NCBI RefSeq assembly: GCF_028687615.1
Contig: NZ_JAQTZU010000013.1
Location: 1-64,000 of the forward strand
Reading direction: 5' to 3'
Source of the DNA: Methylovulum sp.
GTDB taxonomy: Bacteria; Pseudomonadota; Gammaproteobacteria; Methylococcales; Methylomonadaceae
Length of the DNA: 64,000 nucleotides
A program made the translations under genes and the position numbers. The notes below the pieces were generated by a model that saw only the letters and a program-made list of their open reading frames with translations, made no database searches and was not told the origin of the DNA. Below, piece by piece: positions 6,413 through 58,787 of the stretch (position 1 is the first letter of the stretch; every line of letters starts with the position of its first letter).

Positions 6413-6751
6413 TTATTTTGATTCCAAATATTTGTACAACGCGTCAACGGCCTGGTCTTCGCCGTAGCCAGCTTTAGTGACGGCTGGCTGTTTCATGATT
6501 TCTGCGATGGCTTTTGGCATACCGCCTTTGCCTTCTTTCAATACAGATTCAAATTTTGCCCTGTCCAATTGGCCGGCTTTGATCAAAGCGGTCAATTGTG
6601 GGTTTGAAGCGATGTCATGGCAAGTGCCGCAACCGCGGCCAAACGCACGTTCATAGATTTTTTTACCAATTTCCAATTGCTCATCCGCCATTGCTTGCCC
6701 ACTTAAAGCGATTAAAGCAATACCAGCAGCTGTGATTAATGTTTTTTTCAT
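6413..6751 (-). CDS. small monoheme c-type cytochrome
   Basis: The 112-residue product is exported: signal peptide MKKTLITAAGIALIALSGQA with cleavage after AMA. The haem-binding CGTCH motif is at residues 41-45, and a likely axial methionine lies in GGMPKAI. The KKIYERAFGRGCGTCHD context and short length fit a class I soluble cytochrome c or c5-like electron carrier of the periplasm. The start at 6751 is preferred over the longer frame (6784) because it opens directly into the signal peptide and has GAGGTC upstream. The gene is monocistronic, with a terminator beyond its 3' end. The redox partner is not evident from its neighbours. Confidence 0.9.
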   Translation of the reverse strand: MKKTLITAAGIALIALSGQAMADEQLEIGKKIYERAFGRGCGTCHDIASNPQLTALIKAGQLDRAKFESVLKEGKGGMPKAIAEIMKQPAVTKAGYGEDQAVDALYKYLESK

Positions 6752-6995
6752 AATGACCTCTCTTGTGTTAAAAAAGAACTGCATTGCTTGGAAAGTTAAG
6801 TTGCAGCCCGACTAAAAGTTAAACCCGTAAAGAATATGGAATTTAGCCGAAAAATTCAATGCTTTTATTAATATTTTTAATTTCCGGCACCGCTGATAAT
6901 GACAGCAAGCAAACACCGTTTCAAGCATCAGATAGCGATTGAACTATTTTCAACAACAAAAACAGCGTCATAAATTAAAGCCCAAGACGCCAGGA

Positions 6996-7442
6996 TTACC
7001 TGCCATCCATGCCGTTGCCGATAAACGAGCCTGCCGCCGCGCCGATTCCGGCAGCCAGAGGATCACCGTTGCCAAACTGATAGCCAACCGCCCCACCTAC
7101 CGCACTGCCCGCTAAACCTGAGGTTGAACGTGAATCCCGGCTAGGGAAATAAGGATACGGTTGTGGCCTAACGGGTGGCAGTGGTTGTGGATAGTAACGG
7201 ATTTCATCACGGTAATACGGGCGGGGGCGAGGCGGATAATATTTTATGACCTCGCGGTAATAAGGCCGTGGTGGCGCATAATATCTGATTTCTTCACGGT
7301 AATACGGACGCCCGTAATGGTGTCCATGATGTCCGTGATGCTCCCCCCATTCACCGCGTCCGCCATAACCACCTGATGCACCAGCGGACATGGAAAATAA
7401 CGCAGTGCTGCCCAACATAATAAAAAACCATAATTTTTTCAT
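6996..7442 (-). CDS. exported glycine-zipper protein with Tyr/Pro repeats
   Basis: The 148-residue product starts at ATG 7442, with AGGAAGG upstream, and opens with a signal peptide (MKKLWFFIMLGSTALFSMSA, cleavage near GAS). A His/Gly-rich patch (EHHGHHGHHYGR) follows, which could bind metal. Next come three tandem units of about 14 residues with the pattern PYYRE/DEIRYY-PPRP. The C-terminus, SGLAGSAVGGAVGYQFGNGDPLA and AGIGAAAGSFIGN, is a glycine-zipper two-helix membrane segment as in Rick_17kDa/YMGG families. It is probably an envelope protein anchored in the inner or outer membrane. The function is unknown; the histidine patch is only a hint of metal handling. Confidence 0.75.
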   Translation of the reverse strand: MKKLWFFIMLGSTALFSMSAGASGGYGGRGEWGEHHGHHGHHYGRPYYREEIRYYAPPRPYYREVIKYYPPRPRPYYRDEIRYYPQPLPPVRPQPYPYFPSRDSRSTSGLAGSAVGGAVGYQFGNGDPLAAGIGAAAGSFIGNGMDGR

Positions 7443-7563
7443 AACAACCTTCCTAAATCTTAAGTGACGGAGTGCCCAATTGCCGGTCACCACACCGTGA
7501 TGACAAACAACGTGGGCAAATCATAAGAGACTGATTGTTAATGATGGCTTAATGGTTTTGTTT

Positions 7564-9972
7564 TTATATTGGCTCCCTGGCATCCTCCACTTCACCAGCA
7601 GGCCACTGCCAGTTCAGGATTTCCGGCATATCTTCGCCGTATTTGTAAATATAATGTTTATGGTCAATCAATTTATCACGGATATATTGTTTGAGATAAA
7701 CCGCCTGGTTGCCCAGGCTAGGTACGCGGTCAATCACATCGGCGGCCAGATGGAAACGGTCAATGTCATTCATGACCACCATATCGAACGGCGTGGAGGT
7801 CGTGCCTTCCTCCTTATAACCACGGACATGCAGATTGGCGTGGTTGGTGCGGCGGTAGGTCAGGCGATGGATCAGCCAAGGATAGCCGTGATAAGCAAAA
7901 ACCACCGGTTTGTCTTTGGTGAAAATTTCATCAAAGTCCTTGTCTGACAAGCCATTAGGATGTTCGTTAGTCGGTTGCAGACGCATCAAATTGACGACGT
8001 TGACCACGCGGATTTTCAGCTCAGGCACTTTCGTGCGTAACAGGTCGACGGCGGCCAGGGTTTCCAAAGTCGGCACATCACCGGCACAGGCCATCACCAC
8101 ATCAGGTTCAGAGCCATAATCATTGCTCGCCCATTCCCAGACACCAAGCCCTGCCGTGCAATGCTTGACCGCCTCATCCATCGTCAACCATTGCGGTGCC
8201 GGCTGTTTGCCCGCGACGATGACATTGACGTAATTGCGGCTACGCAAGACATGGTCGGTCACCGACAACAAGGTATTGGCATCGGGTGGTAAATACACGC
8301 GGATGACTTCGGCTTTTTTATTGACAACATGGTCGATAAAGCCGGGGTCCTGGTGCGAAAAACCGTTATGGTCTTGCCGCCAGACATGCGAAGTCAACAG
8401 ATAATTCAAGGACGCGACAGGCCGCCGCCACGGGATGCGGTTGCAGGTTTTCAACCATTTTGCATGTTGGTTGAACATCGAATCGACGATATGGATGAAC
8501 GCCTCATAGCACGAAAAAAAGCCGTGCCGCCCGGTCAGCAAATAGCCTTCCAGCCAGCCTTGGCAAGTATGTTCGCTAAGGATTTCCATGACCCGTCCGT
8601 TTTGGGACAGATGGGTGTCTTCCGGCAAGATTTTTTCCATCCACACCCGCGAAGTCACGTCGAAAATATCATCCCAGCGGTTTGATGCCGTTTCATCCGG
8701 GCCAAAAATGCGGAAATTGGCTTGCTCCATATTGCCCCGCATCACATCACGCAAAAACCGCCCCATCACGCGCGTCGCTTCGGCATTCACCGCACCTGGT
8801 GACGGCACATCGACCGCATAATTGCGAAAATCCGGCAGGCGCAAATCACGCAACAGCAAACCGCCGTTGGCATGGGGATTATCGCTGATCCGTTTTGATC
8901 CGGTAGGCGCAAGTTCCAGCAACGCTGGCATAGGCCGGCCTTGGTCATCAAAAAGCTCTTCGGGACGGTAACTTTTCAGCCAGCGTTCGAGCATCTCGAC
9001 ATGCTCGGGATTTTCCGCCAGATTCGCCAACGGTACTTGATGTGACCGCCAGAAACCTTCAGTTTTTTTGCCATCGACGCTGGAAGGCCCTGTCCAGCCT
9101 TTAGGCGTCCGTAAAATGACCATAGGCCAAATCGGACGTGTGATAGGCAAATCACCCAATCGGGCTTGCTTCTGGATCGCGGCGATTTCTTCAAGGCATT
9201 GATCCAGCACACTCGCCATGCGGGTATGGACAATTTCAGGGTCATGGCCTTCGACCAGATAAGCACGGTAGCCATAGCCCGCAAACAATTGGATCAACTC
9301 ATCTTCGTCGATACGGCTGAGCAAGGTCGGATTGGCGATTTTATAGCCGTTCAGGTGCAGGATGGGCAACACCACGCCATCGCGTTGCGGATTCAGGAAC
9401 TTATTGGAATGCCACGCCGCCGCCATCGGCCCGGTTTCCGCTTCGCCGTCACCGACCACACAACAGGCAATCAAATCAGGATTGTCAAATACCGCGCCAT
9501 AAGCGTGGGACAAGGCATAACCCAATTCACCGCCTTCGTGGATCGAACCCGGGGTTTCCGGGGCAACATGGCTGGGAATACCGCCTGGAAAAGAAAATTG
9601 TTTGAACAAGGCTTTCATGCCCTCCTTGTCCTGCGGGATGCTCGGATAATAATCGCTGTAAGTGCCTTCCAGCCAGCAATTGGCAACCATCGCCGGGCCA
9701 CCATGTCCGGGCCCGCAAATATAAATCATGTTCAAGTCATGGGCTTTAATCAAACGGTTCAGATGCACATAAATAAAATTCAATCCTGGCGTCGTACCCC
9801 AATGCCCCAGCAAACGTGGCTTGATATGTTCCAAGGTCAACGGCTCTTTCAGCAACGGATTGTCCAGCAGATAAATCTGCCCGACAGACAAATAATTTGC
9901 CGCCCGCCAATACGCATTTATTTGTTCGAGCATCTCCGCAGATAAGCGCGAATCATGATGATTAGTTTCCAT
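7564..9972 (-). CDS. xfp: phosphoketolase (xylulose-5-phosphate / fructose-6-phosphate)
   Basis: This thiamine-diphosphate enzyme cleaves xylulose-5-P (and often fructose-6-P) with phosphate to acetyl-phosphate plus glyceraldehyde-3-P or erythrose-4-P. The 802 residues match the family. Visible blocks are [15 protein letters not shown] (56-70), the signature EGGELGY (146-152), and the diphosphate/Mg site GDGEAETGP (174-182). The C-terminal [12 protein letters not shown] and [13 protein letters not shown] regions are also present. GAGGAAG sits just before ATG 9972. The gene lies 46 bases after ackA on the same strand, so the acetyl-phosphate made here can be used at once for ATP and acetate. 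In type I methanotrophs this pair is a known branch off the ribulose monophosphate cycle; applying that here is inference. Confidence 0.95.
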
Positions 9973-10018
9973 AGGCTTCCTCTTGTTGGTTATTAGGACA
10001 GGGGTGGTTTAAACAGAT

Positions 10019-11224
10019 TTAATCTGGACTAATTTGGCTAGGCCGCCGGTCCAGGAAAGATAATATCTGCCTGGCACAAACCCGCTCTTCTTCCGCCGGG
10101 ATAATAAGAATACGCGAACGGCTATCGGCACCACTTATATCGGGTTCATGCCGGGCATTGGCAACTAGGTCTATTGAAAAGCCTAATGGTTCCAGACCCG
10201 TGACAATACGCTGGCGAATTTCGGCGGCATGTTCGCCGATACCACCAGTAAAAACAAGGGCGGAAACTTCGCCCAAAACCGCGCAATAAGCCCCGATGGT
10301 TTTTTTGATCCGGTAACAGAACATGTCGATAGCCAACAGGGCGTCGCTGTCACCTTGCCCGGCTTTGAGCAAAATACGGCGCATATCGGTATCATCGCAA
10401 ATGGCTTTCAAACCGCTACGATGGTTCAGCACCGCGTCCAACTCATCCACAGACATGCCTTGCCGCTGCAAGGTCAACAGCACCATCGGATCGATATCGC
10501 CACTACGGCTAGCCATCATCAGGCCTTCGGTGGGTGAAAACCCCATCGACGTATCCACGCCCACACCCGCACGAATCGCGGTGGCACTGGCTCCCCCACC
10601 TAAGTGCAGGACAATCAGGTTCAGTTTTGCAGGTTCACACGCTAAATATCGGGCCGCCTCAGTCAAACTGTGCTGGCAAGAAATGCCATGAAAACCGTAG
10701 CGGTAAAATGCCACGCTTGAAGACAATGACGCCGGGATCGCGTAACGCCCGGCATATTCTGGGATGTTGCGGTGAAAAGCGGTATCAAACAGGGCAAATT
10801 GGGCAACCTCAGGAAAATGCCGACAGGCCATTTGCACACCCAAGCGATTGAGTGGATTATGCAGCGGCGCGTAGCGGTCCAGTCCGGCAAGACGTTGCAA
10901 TACATCTGGGTTGATGGGCGTTAGTGTAGCAAACCAATCCGCGCCATGCACGATACGGTGCCCGATAGCTGCCAGCACCCAAGCTTCGGCATCCAGCCAC
11001 TGTCGCCAACGGTCCAACACCAAAGCCAACACAGCCGAAACATCGCCGACCGGCCCACAATGCTCCTCCACCATTTGACCTTGCAAATCCTGACCGCCAA
11101 TGACCACACCATCGACACGGCCATAATCCGCTGTCAATACCGCTATATCCCGTAAATCGCCATCAAACAAGTGGGTTTTAACCGATGTGCTACCGACATT
11201 GACGACCAGCAACCACACACTCAT
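10019..11224 (-). CDS. ackA: acetate kinase
   Basis: The enzyme interconverts acetyl-phosphate + ADP and acetate + ATP in the cytoplasm. The 401-residue protein begins VVNVGSTSVKTHLFD, the NxGSxSxK phosphate loop (N9 to K16). It also has the HRIVHG block (near 87), FDTAFHRNIPEYAGRY, GFHGISCQHS and VLHLGGGASATAI, and ends near FTGGIGEHAAEIR, all standard for AckA. It is the first gene of an ackA-xfp unit. A double-hairpin terminator at 11438-11472 separates it from the divergently placed gene at 11593. The phosphate-loop residue after NVG is GST rather than GSS, an accepted variation. Confidence 0.95.
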   Translation of the reverse strand: MSVWLLVVNVGSTSVKTHLFDGDLRDIAVLTADYGRVDGVVIGGQDLQGQMVEEHCGPVGDVSAVLALVLDRWRQWLDAEAWVLAAIGHRIVHGADWFATLTPINPDVLQRLAGLDRYAPLHNPLNRLGVQMACRHFPEVAQFALFDTAFHRNIPEYAGRYAIPASLSSSVAFYRYGFHGISCQHSLTEAARYLACEPAKLNLIVLHLGGGASATAIRAGVGVDTSMGFSPTEGLMMASRSGDIDPMVLLTLQRQGMSVDELDAVLNHRSGLKAICDDTDMRRILLKAGQGDSDALLAIDMFCYRIKKTIGAYCAVLGEVSALVFTGGIGEHAAEIRQRIVTGLEPLGFSIDLVANARHEPDISGADSRSRILIIPAEEERVCARQILSFLDRRPSQISPD

Positions 11225-50593: not shown

Positions 50594-51865
50594 CTAAGAA
50601 TAACACCCGCTGACGAAATCGCTGTACAACGCCATGACCTGCTCATGGCTTAAATCCGCGACACTTCTGCAAAAGATCTCAAAAATCCCAAGCGGGGTCG
50701 GTAGCAAGAAATTATTCAGCTCTATCATGCCTTCAAAGTCAACACTGTCGCTCATTTTATAAGCCTGGTTTCTTGGACAGGTGACCAGTTCTAAATTGAC
50801 GCTGAGGCCGCGGGTATATTTTGAATGGTACTTGTCCAGAAAATCCTTTCTTTTAGAGATGGATTCATAAGCCCAGTTATCGTAGTACAGGATAGACAGC
50901 CGTTTGTGTTTGACGCTTAGTTTCTGACGGATATTGATCACGTTTTCAACCCCCTCAGAAATTTCCGCTTCGCCCAATCCATAAGTGCATAAAGCAGGGA
51001 AAAAAAGGCAATGGTCGAATGCCGCACCATCTATAGCCCTTGATAAGGGACTGATAGCCCAAGCAGCGGGCAATTGAAAATGGCCTTTTTGAACAAAAAA
51101 ATGCAAGGCCCTGGCGAACTTCGAATCGCCGGTAATTAAAACGGTTTCTTTGGCAAAAACCTTATCCAATAGACGCTTTAGCAAATGGTCAAACGTTTGT
51201 ATGGTTTTGATCAAATCGACCCGTTCATCCCTTCGTAACAGCTTGAGGATATAAAGCCAGCCAACCAGGCTGGGATGGGCGCTGGAATCAATATAAAGCC
51301 GCTCACCCACTTTAAGAATATCCTGGGTATCAATGGCAACGCCCGCGAATTGCCCAAGAACATCGTGCAAATTCCAAACCGGATGGCGGTATGTGCCCAA
51401 ATCTTGATAACGTCCGGTCGCCCGGTTTTGGTATTCCCGTATCGAAAGATCCCAAAACAACAAGCGCAATTTTCCATTAAGCTGCTGAGTTAGCGACTCA
51501 ATTGCTGACTGGCATAGATCAAGCATCATACGGTCATTTTCTTCATTGATCAGTTCTTTATCAATGGAGAGATACACTTTTTCTGGTCGGCCACTGGCTT
51601 TAAATACGGGGTCTTTCAGTACCGCATTACCGAAGCGGAAATCGCCGACGATAAAAAAAACCTCATGGTTTAAAACCTCATGGTTTGAAGTGGATATGGC
51701 AATTTCCTTACTGATACGCGGATTCCAAATCGGCATACCGCCTACGCCGATGATACGGCTGGGAACGGACAATTCAGGAAGTTGCCGGGTTGCCAAAGCA
51801 TGCTTAAGCCTGACGCTATGGGATGGCCCGAATATAAGGCGTTCCGAAAGGGGGTTATTGGGCAT
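50594..51865 (-). CDS. hypothetical two-module SGNH-like protein (paralog of the GT61 fusion N-terminus)
   Basis: I do not recognise this 423-residue protein as a named family. It has two SGNH-like halves. The first holds G13-P-S-H16, VGDFRFGN (73-80), KELINEENDRMM (103-114), YRHPVWNL (159-166) and DSSAH (193-197). The second holds LITGDSKFARALHFF, then RLSILYYDNWAYESISKRKD, and lacks a clear final His. Almost every block recurs, in the same order, in residues 1-420 of the large gene upstream on the same strand, so they are paralogs. No signal peptide is visible. An acyl or deacylase role on a glycan is possible but unproven. It is the last gene of the cluster, after a 150-base gap. Confidence 0.7.
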   Translation of the reverse strand: MPNNPLSERLIFGPSHSVRLKHALATRQLPELSVPSRIIGVGGMPIWNPRISKEIAISTSNHEVLNHEVFFIVGDFRFGNAVLKDPVFKASGRPEKVYLSIDKELINEENDRMMLDLCQSAIESLTQQLNGKLRLLFWDLSIREYQNRATGRYQDLGTYRHPVWNLHDVLGQFAGVAIDTQDILKVGERLYIDSSAHPSLVGWLYILKLLRRDERVDLIKTIQTFDHLLKRLLDKVFAKETVLITGDSKFARALHFFVQKGHFQLPAAWAISPLSRAIDGAAFDHCLFFPALCTYGLGEAEISEGVENVINIRQKLSVKHKRLSILYYDNWAYESISKRKDFLDKYHSKYTRGLSVNLELVTCPRNQAYKMSDSVDFEGMIELNNFLLPTPLGIFEIFCRSVADLSHEQVMALYSDFVSGCYS

Positions 51866-52017
51866 TGCATAACTCCAATCCCAAACGAATCAACATTGCC
51901 ATCGTAATATACTATTTAAGTTCAAAGCTTGGATGCCACACATTTTCATAATTATTTGATTATTAATAGTTAATCAAAACAGTACACAAGTTGCTGACAT
52001 CTGCATATTGTTGCAAT

Positions 52018-55011
52018 CTATGCCAACGCCCCGATTCTGGATATTTGAAAACGGTTTGAATGCGTATTTAGAAACGTCTGTGCTTCCTTTGCAACCACTT
52101 TGTTCAGGCATTGATCGACAATAACTTCCAGATGCTCCTTATCATCCCAACTTAAATTTTTACCTTTATGCTTTATATTCAGCCAGTCGGACACTAAAGC
52201 AAACTCCGTTTCCAAATCATGTTGTTTGGCATTAAAAAGCTGCTTTACCAATCCCGATGCCATCAAAGTTCGGGAAACTGCTTCAAAATCCACTTGCGTT
52301 ATTCTTGCCGAACTCCTGATAACGCTGTCGATATAATGGCCTTGAATACCCAACACTTGGTCGATCAGCGGATACTGTGGATTCACCCCCGCCTTATTCC
52401 GGTTGAGGTAAAAGATTTTTTCCGGCACATCCGCGCATAACAGCAAGGTATGAAAACCGCTACCGATAAAGCCGACTACATTTTGGGCGGAGCAAAATAG
52501 CTTGACCTGTTCTTTAACCGTGAGGGTTTCCGGGGACACCACAGTGAAGCCTTCGGATTTAAGATAATTTTCAAATTCCGCTTCGCCGCAGATAATGTTC
52601 CCGGTATATTCGGTGCTTAGCCCTGACCTGGAAATGTACACGTTCCCTTGTTTTTCATCAGGATACTCCTTGCCCATAGCCGCTTTTACCTTCGCCGCCA
52701 TAGCCTGCTGATGGTCGGCATCGAGATAATCGTAGTAACGCATACCTATCTTCGGAATCACCAGTTTCTTAAACGACGTCGTTTCCTGAACCAAGATAAT
52801 CCGCTCTAGCGGTATGCCAGTCAGTTCAAAAATTGCCTGCATGTAAGCTGGAAGCTCATCAGCGCGGGTGGCATCCGCATAATAGGTATAGACGATAGGC
52901 AAATGTGAATACCGCTGAAAGCCTTGAAACCTAGATAAGCTTTCGATAATAAAATGTCCGTATTGATCAACGATGGTGCCGCCATACAGGCATACGGTGT
53001 CGATATGGCGCGTGGGCTTTGTGGTCAGGAATGGATCGGCGATTTGCCCGCCATCGACCCGGTTGCACATGGCGGACGCTTCCAGGCCACCATCTTTTCG
53101 GTAAACCCCACCCACGGTACGGACCCTAATGACCGCCTTAAAGTACGCCGAAGGTCTTCTGACACCTTCAACAACCGCCCTGTCCAGCACCACCTCGGTA
53201 CGCGGAAAAATGGCCGGATCATTTTCCAAAGCCACCCGTTTTGCAAGATACAAATGGCTGCCATCAAGAGGGAGACGGTAAGCGCAACTGGCTGGCGGAA
53301 ACCGGGGGCCATGATAATCAGTTTCCCAAGGTTTTATTGCGGCAAGCACTAATTTTGTATAGGCTTCTTGGCTCAAAGTGATTGGACTATTGGCTAATTC
53401 AAACTGCCCTTCCGCATCAAAACTTGCTCGAAGCGGCATACCCACATGCAAATTTTTGAGCAAGGACAAGGCTAACGGGCCTGATGAAAACCCGTAGAAA
53501 CCGCCGTCGCCACCATCCCCGTACTGAAGATCGGCCCGAAATTTGTCGGCCATCACCGAAGCCACCAGCTCAGTCCCTGAAAAAATATACACAGGAACCC
53601 GGTACTCCGATGCCTCAACATCTATTGCCCAACCGCAAACATCGCCAGCCAGCCCGATGCCGTCCAGCTCTCCTTGCAAACGCGCCAGCCGTGTATCGGC
53701 GGCGTCACTGTCTAGTTTGGAAAAATTCGCACCAACATCGGCCTGGCTTGGATTCAGGCAATAACCCAGCATTTGTTCAAAGCGTGAAAAAGCTGTTGGC
53801 AATAAAGTCGGTGAAATCATCAGATGGAACAATGCCGCATAACCTTTGCCGCAAGGATGGAAAGAACCGCCACATTCAATCAACTCGATGGACTCTTGAA
53901 ATGGAATCGCACTTAAACGCCTGACATCAAAATCGGCAAACTGTTGTTCGATGCCCTCGACATACGCTTCGGCATGTTTAGGCATAAACTGGTTAAGGTA
54001 TTCGGGCCGCTTGGAAACGGTTTCACGCGCCCATTGGTCCCAGAACATAACAGTGACCGGGCCGCCAAGAGCCAATTGTTGTATTACGGCTTTTTCTTCG
54101 GCAATTTTGGCCTTGATTTGCGCCGGACTTTCGTCCTGAAAAGATAGCCCGGACAAGTAAACCACACGGTCATAGCGTCCAGGCGCATCCCGGCTCGCCT
54201 TTAAACCATTAATTTCCCAACTGGCGGGCATCAAGAAACAGTTGGTCCGCACCGCTTTGTCCAGTGCCCTGAAAGCAATGGAATTGCCAGTGATATTGAT
54301 CCGGTAACGGTCAGCATTGAGTGGAAACATAAGATGGCTCCAGGTTTCAAAAGTAGAACACACGGATTCGTAAGCGGCTAAAGCGTCCTGTCCAGCCAAC
54401 AAACGGCCGATTAGGGCATGTCCCTTGAAAGTTGGGTGGCCGTTACTATCAAGAAAAAAACTATCGAGGGGAAAGCCTGTCAGCGGTGAGGTATCAATCA
54501 AGGCATTCTTAAATTGCCCGGCCAAATCAGCCAGGTTCCAAACCGGATGCCGGTAATTGCTTTTGCCTCCATAACGGTCATTTTGCTTGTTAAGGAACTC
54601 GCGGTACGTCGATGACCAAAGCAGGATACGCAATTTTGAACCCAGCCTTGTGGACAAGTCATTGAAAAAGTTGACGTTGAGTTTCAACATCCTTTTGTCG
54701 TTTTCGTCAGAAATCAGCTCTTTCTCAATATAAAGATAATTCCCTGAGCTATCGCCGGTGCGTAGGAATTTTTCGCTCTTCAAAATTTTGTTGCCAAACC
54801 GCAAGTCACCCACGAGCAAAACCATCTGATCGACCTGGTCTTCGATGCGGGCTATTTCTGAGCGGATAAAATCCCCCCAAATTGGCATCGCCCCACGACC
54901 GATGAAAATCACATCGTGGCTAGGTTTGGGTATTTGCCTTCTTTCTATGGCAAGTTCCCACCATGTAACATGCGATGAACCGACGATGGCGATTTTTTTA
55001 GGCGGTGGCAT
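52018..55011 (-). CDS. SGNH-like tandem modules + GWA-type domain + GT61 glycosyltransferase fusion
   Basis: The protein has 997 residues from ATG 55011 (in-frame ATGs at 55020 and 55029 are alternatives). Module 1 (about 1-210) has IAIVGSSHVTWWE, VGDLRFGN (67-74), KELISDENDKRML and DSNGHPTFKGH (188-198). Module 2 (about 220-430) has ITGNSIAFRALDKA, VTVMFWDQWARETVSKRPEY and SFHPCGKGYAALF. A beta domain (about 465-560) contains DVCGWAID, KFRADLQYGDGGDG and FYGFSS, a pattern seen on many glycosyltransferases. The last 380 residues are GT61 (DUF563): YGHFIIESLSR (near 683-693), YISRSGLSTEYTG, and FIGSGFHTLLL. It probably adds a sugar and may also edit acyl groups. Its start overlaps the cytidylyltransferase end by 14 bases. 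Confidence 0.78.
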   Translation of the reverse strand: MPPPKKIAIVGSSHVTWWELAIERRQIPKPSHDVIFIGRGAMPIWGDFIRSEIARIEDQVDQMVLLVGDLRFGNKILKSEKFLRTGDSSGNYLYIEKELISDENDKRMLKLNVNFFNDLSTRLGSKLRILLWSSTYREFLNKQNDRYGGKSNYRHPVWNLADLAGQFKNALIDTSPLTGFPLDSFFLDSNGHPTFKGHALIGRLLAGQDALAAYESVCSTFETWSHLMFPLNADRYRINITGNSIAFRALDKAVRTNCFLMPASWEINGLKASRDAPGRYDRVVYLSGLSFQDESPAQIKAKIAEEKAVIQQLALGGPVTVMFWDQWARETVSKRPEYLNQFMPKHAEAYVEGIEQQFADFDVRRLSAIPFQESIELIECGGSFHPCGKGYAALFHLMISPTLLPTAFSRFEQMLGYCLNPSQADVGANFSKLDSDAADTRLARLQGELDGIGLAGDVCGWAIDVEASEYRVPVYIFSGTELVASVMADKFRADLQYGDGGDGGFYGFSSGPLALSLLKNLHVGMPLRASFDAEGQFELANSPITLSQEAYTKLVLAAIKPWETDYHGPRFPPASCAYRLPLDGSHLYLAKRVALENDPAIFPRTEVVLDRAVVEGVRRPSAYFKAVIRVRTVGGVYRKDGGLEASAMCNRVDGGQIADPFLTTKPTRHIDTVCLYGGTIVDQYGHFIIESLSRFQGFQRYSHLPIVYTYYADATRADELPAYMQAIFELTGIPLERIILVQETTSFKKLVIPKIGMRYYDYLDADHQQAMAAKVKAAMGKEYPDEKQGNVYISRSGLSTEYTGNIICGEAEFENYLKSEGFTVVSPETLTVKEQVKLFCSAQNVVGFIGSGFHTLLLCADVPEKIFYLNRNKAGVNPQYPLIDQVLGIQGHYIDSVIRSSARITQVDFEAVSRTLMASGLVKQLFNAKQHDLETEFALVSDWLNIKHKGKNLSWDDKEHLEVIVDQCLNKVVAKEAQTFLNTHSNRFQISRIGALA

Positions 55012-55774
55012 AAACGCCATTAAAGCCATTGTGGATTGGGTGGCCGGGGATAATTTTGGGGATACTTCCCAGCTCACGATTATCCAATGCGGCATACAGC
55101 TTCTCACCCAGGACAAAGTCCTCTTCCCAATCAATATCGAAACCATAAGGGGATGGCGTTTCAAACAAGACGGGTTGATGGCCGACACGATCTTGAAGCT
55201 GTGCCATCAAAAATTTGTCTATCACAAACAACGCGCTGTTGACGAGAAAGATTTTCTCCAGATCTTGGGTGCGGGGCCAGCGTTTGACGGTGCTGTCATG
55301 GCTGATCCACGCGCCGGAACGCATGGCGAAAGTTTGCGACACATCAACCGCCATCAGGCTGTCTGCGCTTTGGTTTTGCAAAGCTTGCGCGTAGGCAGAC
55401 AATGCCGCTTCATAAAGCGAGGTGTCAAACAACGGCGAGGTGACGTGCGTCCAGGCGATCACATCGGTGTCAACCGTATTGCCCAAATAACCGATCAAAC
55501 CTTGCAGGGAATCATCGGCGGCATATTGATCCGGCCTTAAGTCAAGTTTCACGGGTTTGGTCAAGGTCGTGCGGATTTGCCTGACAATCCTGATGACGAT
55601 AGGATCGTTGGTGGTGACCAAGATCTCATCTATCCCCGCCACCTCATCCAGTTGTTTCAGTTTGAGTTCCAACAATCCGTGGGCAAAACCGGCGAAGGGA
55701 CGGGTGTTTTTGTTGGCTACGCGCTGGCTGCCCTTGCGGCAAGGGATAATCGCCGTTACTTTTCTGGACTTCAT
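54998..55774 (-). CDS. cytidylyltransferase of the CMP-sialic/CMP-Kdo type (NeuA-like)
   Basis: The 258-residue protein begins AIIPCRKGSQRVANKNTRPF (the nucleotide-binding loop of the NeuA/KdsB type), with the family blocks LVTTNDPIVIRIV and DVIAWTHVTSPLFDTSLYE, and the metal-binding end YGFDIDWEEDFVLGEKL. Such enzymes join CTP to a keto-acid sugar. The exact sugar is not readable; it lies next to an aldolase, which fits synthesis of a nine-carbon or similar ulosonic acid. GAGGTG lies six bases upstream of ATG 55774. Confidence 0.9.
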   Translation of the reverse strand: MKSRKVTAIIPCRKGSQRVANKNTRPFAGFAHGLLELKLKQLDEVAGIDEILVTTNDPIVIRIVRQIRTTLTKPVKLDLRPDQYAADDSLQGLIGYLGNTVDTDVIAWTHVTSPLFDTSLYEAALSAYAQALQNQSADSLMAVDVSQTFAMRSGAWISHDSTVKRWPRTQDLEKIFLVNSALFVIDKFLMAQLQDRVGHQPVLFETPSPYGFDIDWEEDFVLGEKLYAALDNRELGSIPKIIPGHPIHNGFNGVYATA

Positions 55775-55853
55775 GGCTTGCACCTCATGGTTAATGTTGA
55801 TCATCGGTTTGGTCGGATTGGCAAATTATCAAACTGGCATTACTCACGTCCCG

Positions 55854-57437
55854 TCAGCACGCTTGCACCATCGCATACAAGGAACGCACTGGAATCCGGT
55901 ATAAAGTCGGCGCCAGGCTGACTAGCCTGGGAACGTTGGCGACGGCAAGATATTCGGCAATGGTGGTGGCATTTTCATCATTTTTGGCATGGGACGATTC
56001 GCCTTCGCCGATATAACCATCAAAGCCAACCAGCATCACTTCATCGGCACCGCATTCGACGGCGGCGGTCAAACCCAGTTGCAGAGGGCTAGGGACTGAC
56101 ACTCCGGCGATTTCCGTAATGGCAAACAAGGATGCCGGATTGACTTGGCAAACCGTGCCAACCGTAGGCACACTGCCCGCAAATCTCAGTGGTGGAGACA
56201 CTATCCAGCAAGCGATGCCCTGGGCCAAGGTCTCCAGACGCGGCTTAGAAACCTTTTGAATTTCATGCCCCGACAAGGCAATGCAATGTCCGCTTAAATC
56301 GGTGAAATGCCCTGTCGATTTGAGGCTGGTGTGCAAAATCACGGTATCGTCAAGATCGAAATGCTCCATCACCGATGCCGCCCGTTTCGCACTGTCGCCA
56401 CCGCCGATCAGGATAAAACGGCTACGACCTGAAGTGCCTGAAAAATCAGCGAATTTTGCGAACGATTTGTTGTCGGAACCACCATGCACCACTAGTTTGT
56501 TTTGCAAGGCGCCCATCACCACCGCCGGGTCAAAACGATCCTTGATCAACCAGTCCATCACTTTGCCTTGCTCTTGACCGGACAGGCTGGAATACATATA
56601 CGGCAGCGATGTCCCCCATTGGTACAAGGCATGGAGTCTTGCCATCCTGTCCATGAATTTGCTCAGTTCAAAATAGGGGATTTCCGTACCCGTCGCGATG
56701 CCGATATAGGTCAGCATCAATTCGGTTTTCAAGTTGCCCGCCCCTCGCCCCATGCCCATGAACGTCGCGTCAATAGACGTCGCCCCCGATTGCAACGCGC
56801 TTAAGGCATTGGCAAAGGCCAAACCCGCATTGTCGTGGCCGTGAAAACCGACCTTACCAGAAAAAATCGCACAAGTCCGGCTGATCGCCGCCCCCACCTC
56901 ATCGGGAAAACAGCCGCCATAACTATCCACCAACGCCAAGCAATCGAGATGCTTGATTTCAGAAAACGGCGCGAGTATTTCGTCCACTTTCCCGCTCCAT
57001 TTGCTCAAGTGCATGACATTCAAACCACAGGCAAAACCGTGTCCGATGACTTTTTGATGCAGTCGCAAAGCCCGTAAAATCTCGCTGGGTGCCACGGCAA
57101 AGCGGATCAAATCCACAATGCCTTCAATATCACTGAGGAAAAAATCGATGCTGTCTTCACTCACGTCTTTGAGGTTAAACATCACCGCCAAACGTTGGTT
57201 CGGACGCAAACGCTGCTTGGCTTCGAGCAACTCCTGCCTGGAAAGATAAAAAAACCGTCCGAAATAACTGTCTTTCTCAGGGCTACGGTAACCGATTTCG
57301 ATGTCGTGTATCGGGCTACGGGCAACCAAATCAAGGTATTCATGGACAAAATCCGCATCGAATTCCCATTGGGTGTAGTAGCCCCCGTCACGCAAGGTGC
57401 AATCGAGCAGCCGAATTTGGTTGGATAGCGTTTTCAT
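55854..57437 (-). CDS. DRE-TIM aldolase fused to a MptE/MAF-like C-terminal domain
   Basis: The 527-residue protein starts IRLLDCTLRDGGYYTQW, the metal-binding DxTxRDG core of the HMGL/DmpG group, with FHGHDNAGLAFANAL, DATFMGMGRGAGNLKTELM and the rest of the TIM barrel (about 1-300). The C-terminal half has RFILIGGGDSAKRAASVMEH and GADEVMLVGFDGYIGEG, resembling the MptE/DUF115-type domain found in motility-accessory (MAF) glycosylation proteins. The aldolase likely makes a keto-acid from pyruvate and an aldehyde sugar. The fusion is unusual; the two halves may make and hand over the sugar. Confidence 0.82.
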   Translation of the reverse strand: MKTLSNQIRLLDCTLRDGGYYTQWEFDADFVHEYLDLVARSPIHDIEIGYRSPEKDSYFGRFFYLSRQELLEAKQRLRPNQRLAVMFNLKDVSEDSIDFFLSDIEGIVDLIRFAVAPSEILRALRLHQKVIGHGFACGLNVMHLSKWSGKVDEILAPFSEIKHLDCLALVDSYGGCFPDEVGAAISRTCAIFSGKVGFHGHDNAGLAFANALSALQSGATSIDATFMGMGRGAGNLKTELMLTYIGIATGTEIPYFELSKFMDRMARLHALYQWGTSLPYMYSSLSGQEQGKVMDWLIKDRFDPAVVMGALQNKLVVHGGSDNKSFAKFADFSGTSGRSRFILIGGGDSAKRAASVMEHFDLDDTVILHTSLKSTGHFTDLSGHCIALSGHEIQKVSKPRLETLAQGIACWIVSPPLRFAGSVPTVGTVCQVNPASLFAITEIAGVSVPSPLQLGLTAAVECGADEVMLVGFDGYIGEGESSHAKNDENATTIAEYLAVANVPRLVSLAPTLYRIPVRSLYAMVQAC

Positions 57438-57455
57438 AACGGATTAAATAAGGTG

Positions 57456-58547
57456 TTAAGTTTTCGGCTGGTTTTGGTGGGCCTGCATTTTTTGCAAAAC
57501 TTGCTCAAAAAAAGGCGGGGGTGATTTTTTACAGCATTCAAACCGCTCAAAAATGGCCTTGAAATTAATCTGCAATTTGGGTGCTGGGTTGACGGGTGCA
57601 AAACGCGATTCTGGCGGCAATTTATTTTTAGTACACGCCAGGGACGCGCAATAGGCGGCTTCAATGATTAGCAAAAACTTATGGCAATCGCTCATCTGGC
57701 CTATCACCCAATTATTTTGCGGATGCAGCAAATCGATCATGCCGTAACGGCCGGCATTGACCGCGCCAATAAACAAACTGGCGGCTTCGTCAAAATGCCC
57801 GTACCACGCCTTGATCAAGCCGCCCTGAAACAACAACATGGCGTAATTTTGATGGACCAGGGGATTAAAACTGGGGTGGACTATCGCTTTAAGCGCCCCG
57901 TCAACGACATCCGCCGCCTGTGTCACCGATCCTGTTGCCAGCAAAGCCGTAGCCAGGACACTGGAGCTTGAAACCAACCAACGGAAAGCCACGGCATTAT
58001 GGCTTTGCACTTTATCCCGATAATGCCGGTAAGTGGCATGGACTGCTTCGAGTATATCGCCACGCTCTTCCAGTTTGTCGGCGATACGATAGGAAAGTAT
58101 CGTAATCAAGCCACCGAAATTCTGGTTATCAAGCGGCAAGGCATTCAAATACGCATAAGTCACGACAAACAAATCATCCAGGGAATAATTGCGGGCTTGG
58201 GCGTTAAACAAGTTTTTGGTCAGATAAACATTGTCATTGAGTTTGTCGCTATCAAGCTGGTAACGCAGGAACAAGCCGCTAATATCCAATGAGTTTCCAG
58301 CCCAAATTAACAACACCTTGGTCAATGCGGGAATACGGAGGCTTTGCACCGAAAATTTCAAGCTCAAGCGCCCGTCATTCTCTGGCTGGGTTTTGCAATT
58401 GATAGAAAATTCACTGCCATCATGGCAAGTGACACGAATTTCACCTTTATCAATAATCGACCTGTCATAGGGTTCAAGCTCAAGAATGAACTCACCACCG
58501 CATAACTTGACATGCGATTTATTGGCAATACTCGACATCATGTTCAT
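57456..58547 (-). CDS. hypothetical 363-residue TPR-like protein, first gene of the glycan cluster
   Basis: I do not recognise this protein. It has an N-terminal beta-rich part (VKLCGGEFILELEPYDRSII, then IRVTCHDGSEFSINC) and, from about 130, repeated helices with TPR-like spacing (GGLITILSYRIADKLEERGD, AVHATYRHYRDKV, AWYGHFDEAASLFIGAVNAG). The C-terminus is basic and Pro/Lys-rich. There are no signal peptide or membrane segments. The gene lies 18 bases upstream of the aldolase and so opens the operon. A scaffolding or targeting role is likely from the repeats and position only. Confidence 0.6.
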   Translation of the reverse strand: MNMMSSIANKSHVKLCGGEFILELEPYDRSIIDKGEIRVTCHDGSEFSINCKTQPENDGRLSLKFSVQSLRIPALTKVLLIWAGNSLDISGLFLRYQLDSDKLNDNVYLTKNLFNAQARNYSLDDLFVVTYAYLNALPLDNQNFGGLITILSYRIADKLEERGDILEAVHATYRHYRDKVQSHNAVAFRWLVSSSSVLATALLATGSVTQAADVVDGALKAIVHPSFNPLVHQNYAMLLFQGGLIKAWYGHFDEAASLFIGAVNAGRYGMIDLLHPQNNWVIGQMSDCHKFLLIIEAAYCASLACTKNKLPPESRFAPVNPAPKLQINFKAIFERFECCKKSPPPFFEQVLQKMQAHQNQPKT

Positions 58548-58571: not shown

Positions 58572-58787
58572 TCAAACTTTTGCCAACGCAAACTGCGTCG
58601 TTTTTACCACCGCCACGGCTTCCTGCCCCACCACCAAACCTAGCGATTTAAGTGAGCTGGTTGTGATGACCGAGGTAATAATCCCCGCCGCCGTGTCCAG
58701 CTCAACTTCTGAAAGGACATCCCGGTTGTGGATATTCCGAATCCTACCTTTGATTTGGTTGTTGCCGGTAACTTCTGAAGTAACCAT
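58572..58787 (-). CDS. molbindin (Mop/TOBE domain protein)
   Basis: The 71-residue protein starts at ATG 58787 with GGGAGC just upstream and follows the Mop pattern QIKGRIRNIHNRDVLSEVEL, then IITSVITTSSLKSLGLVVGQ, and VVKTTQFALAKV. Molbindins bind molybdate in oligomers and may store it. A moaA gene lies 3.5 kb away, but not in the same unit. The frame is open 20 codons further upstream but the family N-terminus starts here. Confidence 0.9.
   Translation of the reverse strand: MVTSEVTGNNQIKGRIRNIHNRDVLSEVELDTAAGIITSVITTSSLKSLGLVVGQEAVAVVKTTQFALAKV

Follow-up and report, generated by a model that had tools for sequence, protein, structure and literature searches.

A candidate operon for a CMP-activated keto-acid sugar in Methylovulum sp. 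and its recurrent aldolase-cytidylyltransferase pair

Positions 1 to 64,000 of contig NZ_JAQTZU010000013.1 of Methylovulum sp. (assembly GCF_028687615.1), a member of a methanotroph genus, were analyzed; this whole stretch is called the window, and corresponds to contig C31 of the genome here labelled G000. Six minus-strand genes in the window probably form a portable operon for a cytidine monophosphate (CMP)-activated 3-deoxy-2-ulosonic (keto-acid) sugar used on a surface glycan, as judged from domain content, gene neighborhoods and distribution among genomes. In order of transcription, they encode a TOBE-domain protein, a 363-amino acid (aa) protein, an aldolase, a cytidylyltransferase, a 997-aa SGNH-SGNH-beta-GT61 fusion and a second tandem-SGNH protein. 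The first three gaps measure 24, 18 and 49 bp; the cytidylyltransferase and fusion genes overlap by 14 bp, and 152 bp separate the last two genes.

The aldolase would condense a sugar aldehyde with a pyruvate-type unit, as family chemistry suggests, and would take the job that the phosphoenolpyruvate (PEP)-dependent NeuB or KdsA has in the sialate or 3-deoxy-manno-octulosonate (Kdo) pathways. If the product were phosphorylated, a HAD phosphatase would remove the phosphate, operon-encoded in some relatives and an unlinked enzyme in G000. The cytidylyltransferase would make the CMP-sugar, and a transferase, possibly the GT61 domain or an unlinked enzyme, would add the CMP-sugar residue or a neighboring sugar to a glycan, on which the SGNH modules would add or remove ester groups.

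The coupling of aldolase and cytidylyltransferase was established by comparison of sequences from viruses and from other bacteria. An aldolase profile found 60 loci in viral contigs, and a cytidylyltransferase model built from seven bacterial sequences placed both enzymes in one open reading frame (ORF) in 39 of them and in adjacent ORFs (within 300 bp) in 11, with neither arrangement in 10. After clustering at 70% identity (n = 28), 13 loci were fused, 9 adjacent and 6 neither. Among 1216 viral ORFs, 54 of the 56 cytidylyltransferase matches fell in the 184 ORFs that were, or adjoined, an aldolase ORF. Both viral fusions scanned with Pfam (L110 and L145) had PF00682 and PF02348 in one chain. 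When 50,697 phage records were searched with a viral fusion, 9 of them matched, none covering 80% of the fusion.

In bacteria, 6/6 loci of distant full-length aldolases (L043-L046, L058 and L169; two further Leisingera matches were left out) had a cytidylyltransferase gene that adjoined the aldolase gene or was separated from it by one gene, and four of the six (L044, L046, L058 and L169) had a HAD gene near the aldolase. The Leisingera locus lay in an annotated polysaccharide-type region, as did the G435 locus by eye, and the Leisingera neighbor was annotated as 3-deoxy-manno-octulosonate cytidylyltransferase. The first-pass annotation of this DNA had proposed that a keto-acid sugar is made and activated here; that aldolase and cytidylyltransferase belong to one pathway is strongly supported by the fusions and neighborhoods. 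Its expectation that aldolase, cytidylyltransferase and GT61 genes are neighbors elsewhere held for the first two, but GT61 joined them only inside Methylovulum (6/9 cluster genomes; 0 matches in the 60 viral loci).

The aldolase domain (residues 1-314; 56496-57437, minus strand, as are all features given below) was recognized by Pfam as HMGL-like, of the HMGL/DRE-TIM type (PF00682, E 3.1e-18), in agreement with the earlier assignment. Its closest solved relative was PDB 3dxi (E 2.3e-65 over residues 8-314), followed by DmpG-type aldolases (E 3.2e-14 to 1e-8). The 3dxi protein, presumably from Bacteroides vulgatus, is named just 'putative aldolase'; it shares the LRDGGYY stretch with the operon aldolase, but its 320-residue chain is without the C-terminal domain of the latter. 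In an alignment of 12 aldolases (7 orthologues and 5 distant sequences), R16, D17, Y20, H199, H201 and N235 were unchanged in all 12. Two residue pairs aligned with 1nvm and are also those of the DmpG/BphI 4-hydroxy-2-oxovalerate aldolases: Arg-Asp in TLRDG and the two metal-site His residues in GFHGHDN. DmpG has TLRDGSH where the operon aldolase has TLRDGGY, with Tyr20 opposite a His of 1nvm that we take to be catalytic; Tyr was present in 12/12 sequences and also in 3dxi. Pyruvate aldol addition is thus the likely, if putative, reaction. The 4-hydroxy-2-oxovalerate aldolase equivalog TIGR03217 was not reached (65.4 bits; cut-off 286). The operon aldolase further differs from DmpG/BphI, whose partner is acetaldehyde dehydrogenase, in its extra C-terminal domain and its cytidylyltransferase partner.

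The cytidylyltransferase (54998-55804), proposed before to be a CMP-sugar enzyme, matched CTP_transf_3 over the cut-off (PF02348, E 6.4e-6) and belongs to the NeuA/PseF/KdsB superfamily. The PseF model of the nonulosonic acid pathways (NeuB/NeuA, PseI/PseF, LegI) also matched (E 4.3e-11), but with a score of 42.9 against a cut-off of 205.7. NeuA 9ftb aligned to residues 16-238 (E 3.7e-5), including the nucleotide-binding and D-I-D stretches. According to PMC2901514, an Asp pair binds the catalytic magnesium in the CMP-Neu5Ac synthetase of N. meningitidis; the D-I-D stretch would correspond to that pair.

The unity of the operon was established from its distribution and gene order in the genus. 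The aldolase orthologue was present in 9/20 Methylovulum genomes (76-86% identity), and the 363-aa and TOBE genes were present in exactly the same nine, the TOBE orthologues being at least 78% identical. The cytidylyltransferase was found in eight of these nine cluster genomes (best match 69-78% identity); in G015, the remaining one (76% complete), the contig stops short of the place where the gene would lie. The TOBE gene lay directly upstream of the 363-aa gene in 7/7 related loci reaching that far; two further loci begin inside the aldolase gene and do not cover the position. Three genes flanking the set in the window (566, 148 and 123 aa) had no tblastn match in the other loci, and TOBE matched in 7/7. 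Upstream neighbors varied by locus: a LysR regulator and ABC ATPase, GT41 and a Kdo transferase, an AcrB pump, a TetR regulator or, in one genome, a sigma-54 activator with a FleQ domain. A HAD phosphatase gene followed the aldolase in 4/9 orthologous loci (G006, G010, G013 and G015), which is the expectation for a pathway of the Kdo or sialate type. When the cluster label was mapped on a LeuA tree comprising one outgroup and 19 genus genomes (the twentieth, G009, had no LeuA match), at least 4 changes were needed. Well supported branches forced 2 of these, and the cluster has therefore probably been gained or lost more than once.

The 997-aa fusion (52018-55011) contains two SGNH modules, a beta-rich domain and a GT61 glycosyltransferase domain (52432-52962; PF04577, E 1.8e-16, over the cut-off, as the GT61 claim of the first reading had it). 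In SGNH module 1 (54397-55011), G-x-S-H, G, D-x-R-x-G-N and D-x-x-x-H were invariant in 16/16 aligned sequences; we take these to hold the block I Ser, block II Gly, block III Asn and block V Asp/His, and the last two are four residues apart. The earlier label SGNH-like finds support in module 1; module 2 (53752-54324) is degenerate and without the conserved block V Asp/His. Neither module had a Pfam match, and the best E value of the SGNH alignment against PDB profiles was 2. Ten-residue blocks of the tandem-SGNH model (residues 1-420) had a predicted local distance difference test (pLDDT) of 70-93, with one block at 52. Foldseek of the SGNH model retrieved acetyl-xylan esterases and a GDSL-type lipase (probability 0.97-1.00, but E 2.5e-3 or weaker); two unrelated proteins outranked them, and no match at all reached E 1e-3. 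The second SGNH protein (423 aa; 50594-51865), which lies downstream of the fusion gene, is also tandem and was 34% identical to the N-terminus of the fusion (E 1.6e-52). Judged by eye from the alignment, the G019 sequence nearest to it is encoded at a different place in the G019 genome.

Relatives of fusion residues 1-430 were present in 9/9 cluster genomes and in 0/11 others, counting unlinked copies (the matches in G013 and G015 were partial, 201 and 54 residues). The GT61 fusion was present in 6/20 genus genomes (G000, G003, G009, G010, G011 and G019; G010 has the HAD phosphatase gene as well). With 9/9 against 6/9, SGNH tracks the core more faithfully than GT61 does, and its co-occurrence with the core is established at the level of gene content. 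Outside the genus, SGNH relatives were found in 2/397 other phylum genomes sampled. One adjoined a GT99 plus Capsule_synth protein, and inspection by eye showed export and rhamnose-type genes in the vicinity. Between the second relative and a Capsule_synth-RgpF protein lay a single gene, for a sulfotransferase. GT99 and Capsule_synth include beta-Kdo transferases, and these outside loci, two in number, give independent support to SGNH action on glycans of the Kdo/ulosonate kind. The first-pass annotation had tied the SGNH proteins to the sugar core; co-occurrence and the capsule-type loci bear out the tie, and acyl editing would be their putative role. Owing to co-occurrence, fusions and neighbors, and capsule-type SGNH loci, its broader proposal, in which a keto-acid sugar is synthesized, activated and attached to a glycan, with ester editing, has support at sequence level in most respects.

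How the activated sugar reaches a glycan is where the strongest alternative departs. The CMP-ulosonate core and the GT61/SGNH proteins may have separate functions, with GT61 acting on an ordinary uridine diphosphate (UDP)-sugar and an unlinked transferase using the CMP-sugar. This has a chance slightly short of even, and it shares the core with the proposed operon for a surface glycan and differs on the transferase only, so the probabilities of the two overlap. Known GT61 donors are UDP-sugars, and we know of no GT61 that uses a CMP donor. The three cluster genomes without the fusion were G006 (99% complete), G013 and G015 (both 76% complete); the nearly complete G006 keeps the core and an SGNH protein on a different contig, its nearest to the fusion (59% identity, fusion residues 3-422). 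The absence of GT61 from the 60 viral loci also agrees with separate functions. Against them stand the fusion of SGNH to GT61, the 14-bp overlap of the fusion gene with the cytidylyltransferase gene, and two further GT61 genes in G000, 2.3 and 3.8 kb from the aldolase gene of its second, distant aldolase/cytidylyltransferase locus (L043, G000:C9).

The lack of a known CMP-using GT61 and the absence of the fusion from G006 count against a CMP-ulosonate surface-glycan operon as a whole, and further observations count against it too. The window operon has no HAD gene, and the HAD of the relatives had no homologue in G000 at E ≤ 1e-3. The replacement of the DmpG-type catalytic His by Tyr in all 12 aldolases implies that the reaction may differ. 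Full-length aldolases were rare (2/398 phylum genomes, one being G000). Short aldolase relatives without the C-terminal domain had no cytidylyltransferase listed in four annotated plasmid regions, whose gene table is incomplete (6 of 104 matching plasmid records were inspected; a fifth region carries no annotation), and blastp with the window enzyme found none in 16 kb around the short relative in G053. The cluster label was clustered on the LeuA tree beyond chance (16/500 shuffles as low), so that shared ancestry explains part of the co-occurrence, insofar as a single-gene tree can tell.

Protein glycosylation is an unlikely alternative, in which the 363-aa protein would present a protein acceptor and the aldolase C-terminal domain would be a Maf/sialyltransferase-like CMP-sugar transferase. 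Every genome with the aldolase orthologue also has the 363-aa gene, in one genome the FleQ-domain gene immediately precedes the set, and PF01973 weakly matched the C-termini of 2/4 distant aldolase paralogues (E 0.0074 and 0.064). The C-terminal alpha/beta domain (55854-56495) is common to the 5 distant full-length aldolases (21-23% identity) and is faintly MptE-like at best: PF01973 had no match in the window protein, matched at E ≤ 0.1 in 1/20 genus genomes and was over the cut-off in 0/20, which leaves the earlier label 'MptE/MAF-like' weak. Its structure model was poor (pLDDT 57) and this low-confidence model gave no Foldseek match at E ≤ 1e-3; the best E value against PDB profiles was 0.42. 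Searches of phylum genomes with the domain gave weak matches in just 2 genomes besides that of the window. In the viral fusion L110 there is no space left for the domain. A 268-aa protein of G440 (L067:8931-9737) weakly resembles it (31% over ~100 residues) with the aldolase part absent.

That the set is catabolic, with the aldolase cleaving a keto-acid sugar and the SGNH proteins being esterases for uptake of an environmental glycan, is very improbable: DmpG-type relatives are catabolic lyases by family knowledge and SGNH folds include acetyl-xylan esterases, but a cytidylyltransferase, fused or adjacent in 50/60 viral loci, has no place in catabolism, related loci resemble polysaccharide biosynthesis islands (partly by eye), and Pfam recognized no transporter among the operon proteins.

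The proposed CMP-ulosonate operon resembles the Kdo pathway (KdsA-KdsC-KdsB, with the beta-Kdo transferases GT99 and KpsC/KpsS) in its scheme of a condensation and a later CMP activation, with a HAD phosphatase in between where the locus encodes one (4/9 orthologous loci, not that of the window). The GT99/Capsule_synth neighbors of the SGNH relatives and the Kdo-type annotation of the Leisingera cytidylyltransferase add to the likeness. It differs in having an HMGL-type aldolase instead of the PEP-dependent KdsA, and no Capsule_synth/GT99 match was found in the operon. No PEP-dependent synthase of the NeuB/KdsA type matched in a search that covered the operon and not the rest of the genome. 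The operon cytidylyltransferase shares its superfamily with NeuA and PseF of the nonulosonic acid pathways. With respect to the GT61 family, the operon protein is set apart by its N-terminal fusion to tandem SGNH and a beta domain.

What the first-pass annotation observed was for the most part borne out, and so was the core of its interpretation. Its five same-strand genes were all present as ORFs where it had placed them. Of the overlaps it reported among the first four, that of the cytidylyltransferase and GT61 genes stood (14 bp), whereas the other junctions have gaps (18 and 49 bp). A sixth gene, absent from it, belongs to the set: the TOBE gene (58572-58787), upstream of the 363-aa gene, encodes a single TOBE/Mop-domain protein of 71 aa (PF03459, E 2.4e-11) and is the first gene of the conserved set. 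The protein is molbindin-like and strictly tied to the operon. The 363-aa protein (57456-58547), a conserved protein with no assigned fold, had orthologues in 9 of the 61 genomes searched, each of the nine a Methylovulum (main segments 61-72% identical), and in 0/41 other family and order genomes. It had no Pfam match above noise. Its former description as TPR-like was not upheld, as no TPR model matched at E ≤ 1 in the window protein or in the one orthologue scanned (L034). A 366-aa protein before the aldolase in G435 was rejected as its homologue (hhalign probability 0.1). Both the TOBE and the 363-aa proteins may have a role in the pathway.

For the fusion protein, ATG 55011 (997 aa) is the most likely start, since it yields the 14-bp overlap seen also in M. 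miyakonense; GTG 55188 was dropped. The beta-rich domain (residues ~438-565; 53302-53700) had low model confidence and no Pfam match. Domains ~33% identical to it are present in G000 (C20:77866-78231), G012 (C11) and G013 (C22), in ORFs of 1232, 1303 and 1258 aa, respectively. That the beta-rich domain is the same as a 156-aa protein of the G435 locus was unsupported (BLASTP E 0.10).

Further features were observed at the compared loci. The single-chain viral fusions were at L109-L139, L141-L146, L151 and L166, all uncultivated viral contigs. In viral contig L108, a GT29 sialyltransferase gene (E 2.5e-11) lies directly before the aldolase; it and a gene with a similar start by eye (6557-7246 and 9521-10315) stand around the aldolase and two cytidylyltransferase genes, and for the second of them Pfam gave DUF3256 only (E 9e-4). 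An HpcH/HpaI-type aldolase gene lies between the HMGL-type aldolase and the cytidylyltransferase at L043:7103-7864 and L046:7868-8629. At L044, the locus of the second M. miyakonense aldolase, a GSCFA-family protein (6886-8049; PF08885, E 3.6e-45) is encoded two genes ahead of that aldolase. Among the larger window ORFs, scanned by eye, no other glycan genes stood out. A promoter and terminator scan was uninformative (9 and 8 found, 10.8 and 11.9 in shuffles). A role in anti-phage defence was unsupported (PADLOC, 0/6 proteins), and PHROGs matched 0/5 proteins at 1e-5.

The most valuable result lies beyond the coordinates first noted, in the aldolase-cytidylyltransferase module that occurs as a fusion in viral contigs and again in polysaccharide loci. 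All biosynthetic routes to CMP-ulosonic acids that we can name start with a PEP-dependent synthase, and among titles and abstracts from the openly accessible portion of the literature no description was found of the gene set or of an HMGL-type aldolase route to CMP-sugars. We give even chances to the module being a PEP-independent CMP-ulosonate branch, characterized by an HMGL-type aldolase with Tyr for His, distributed in bacteria and phages, with single-chain enzymes in viruses and, in Methylovulum, with a TOBE protein and a residue subject to SGNH/GT61 ester editing. If so, the recurring, virus-fused aldolase and cytidylyltransferase module would be a second way to CMP-ulosonic-type sugars, and one would expect bacterial surfaces and phage-encoded pathways to have acidic sugars that have so far gone unseen.

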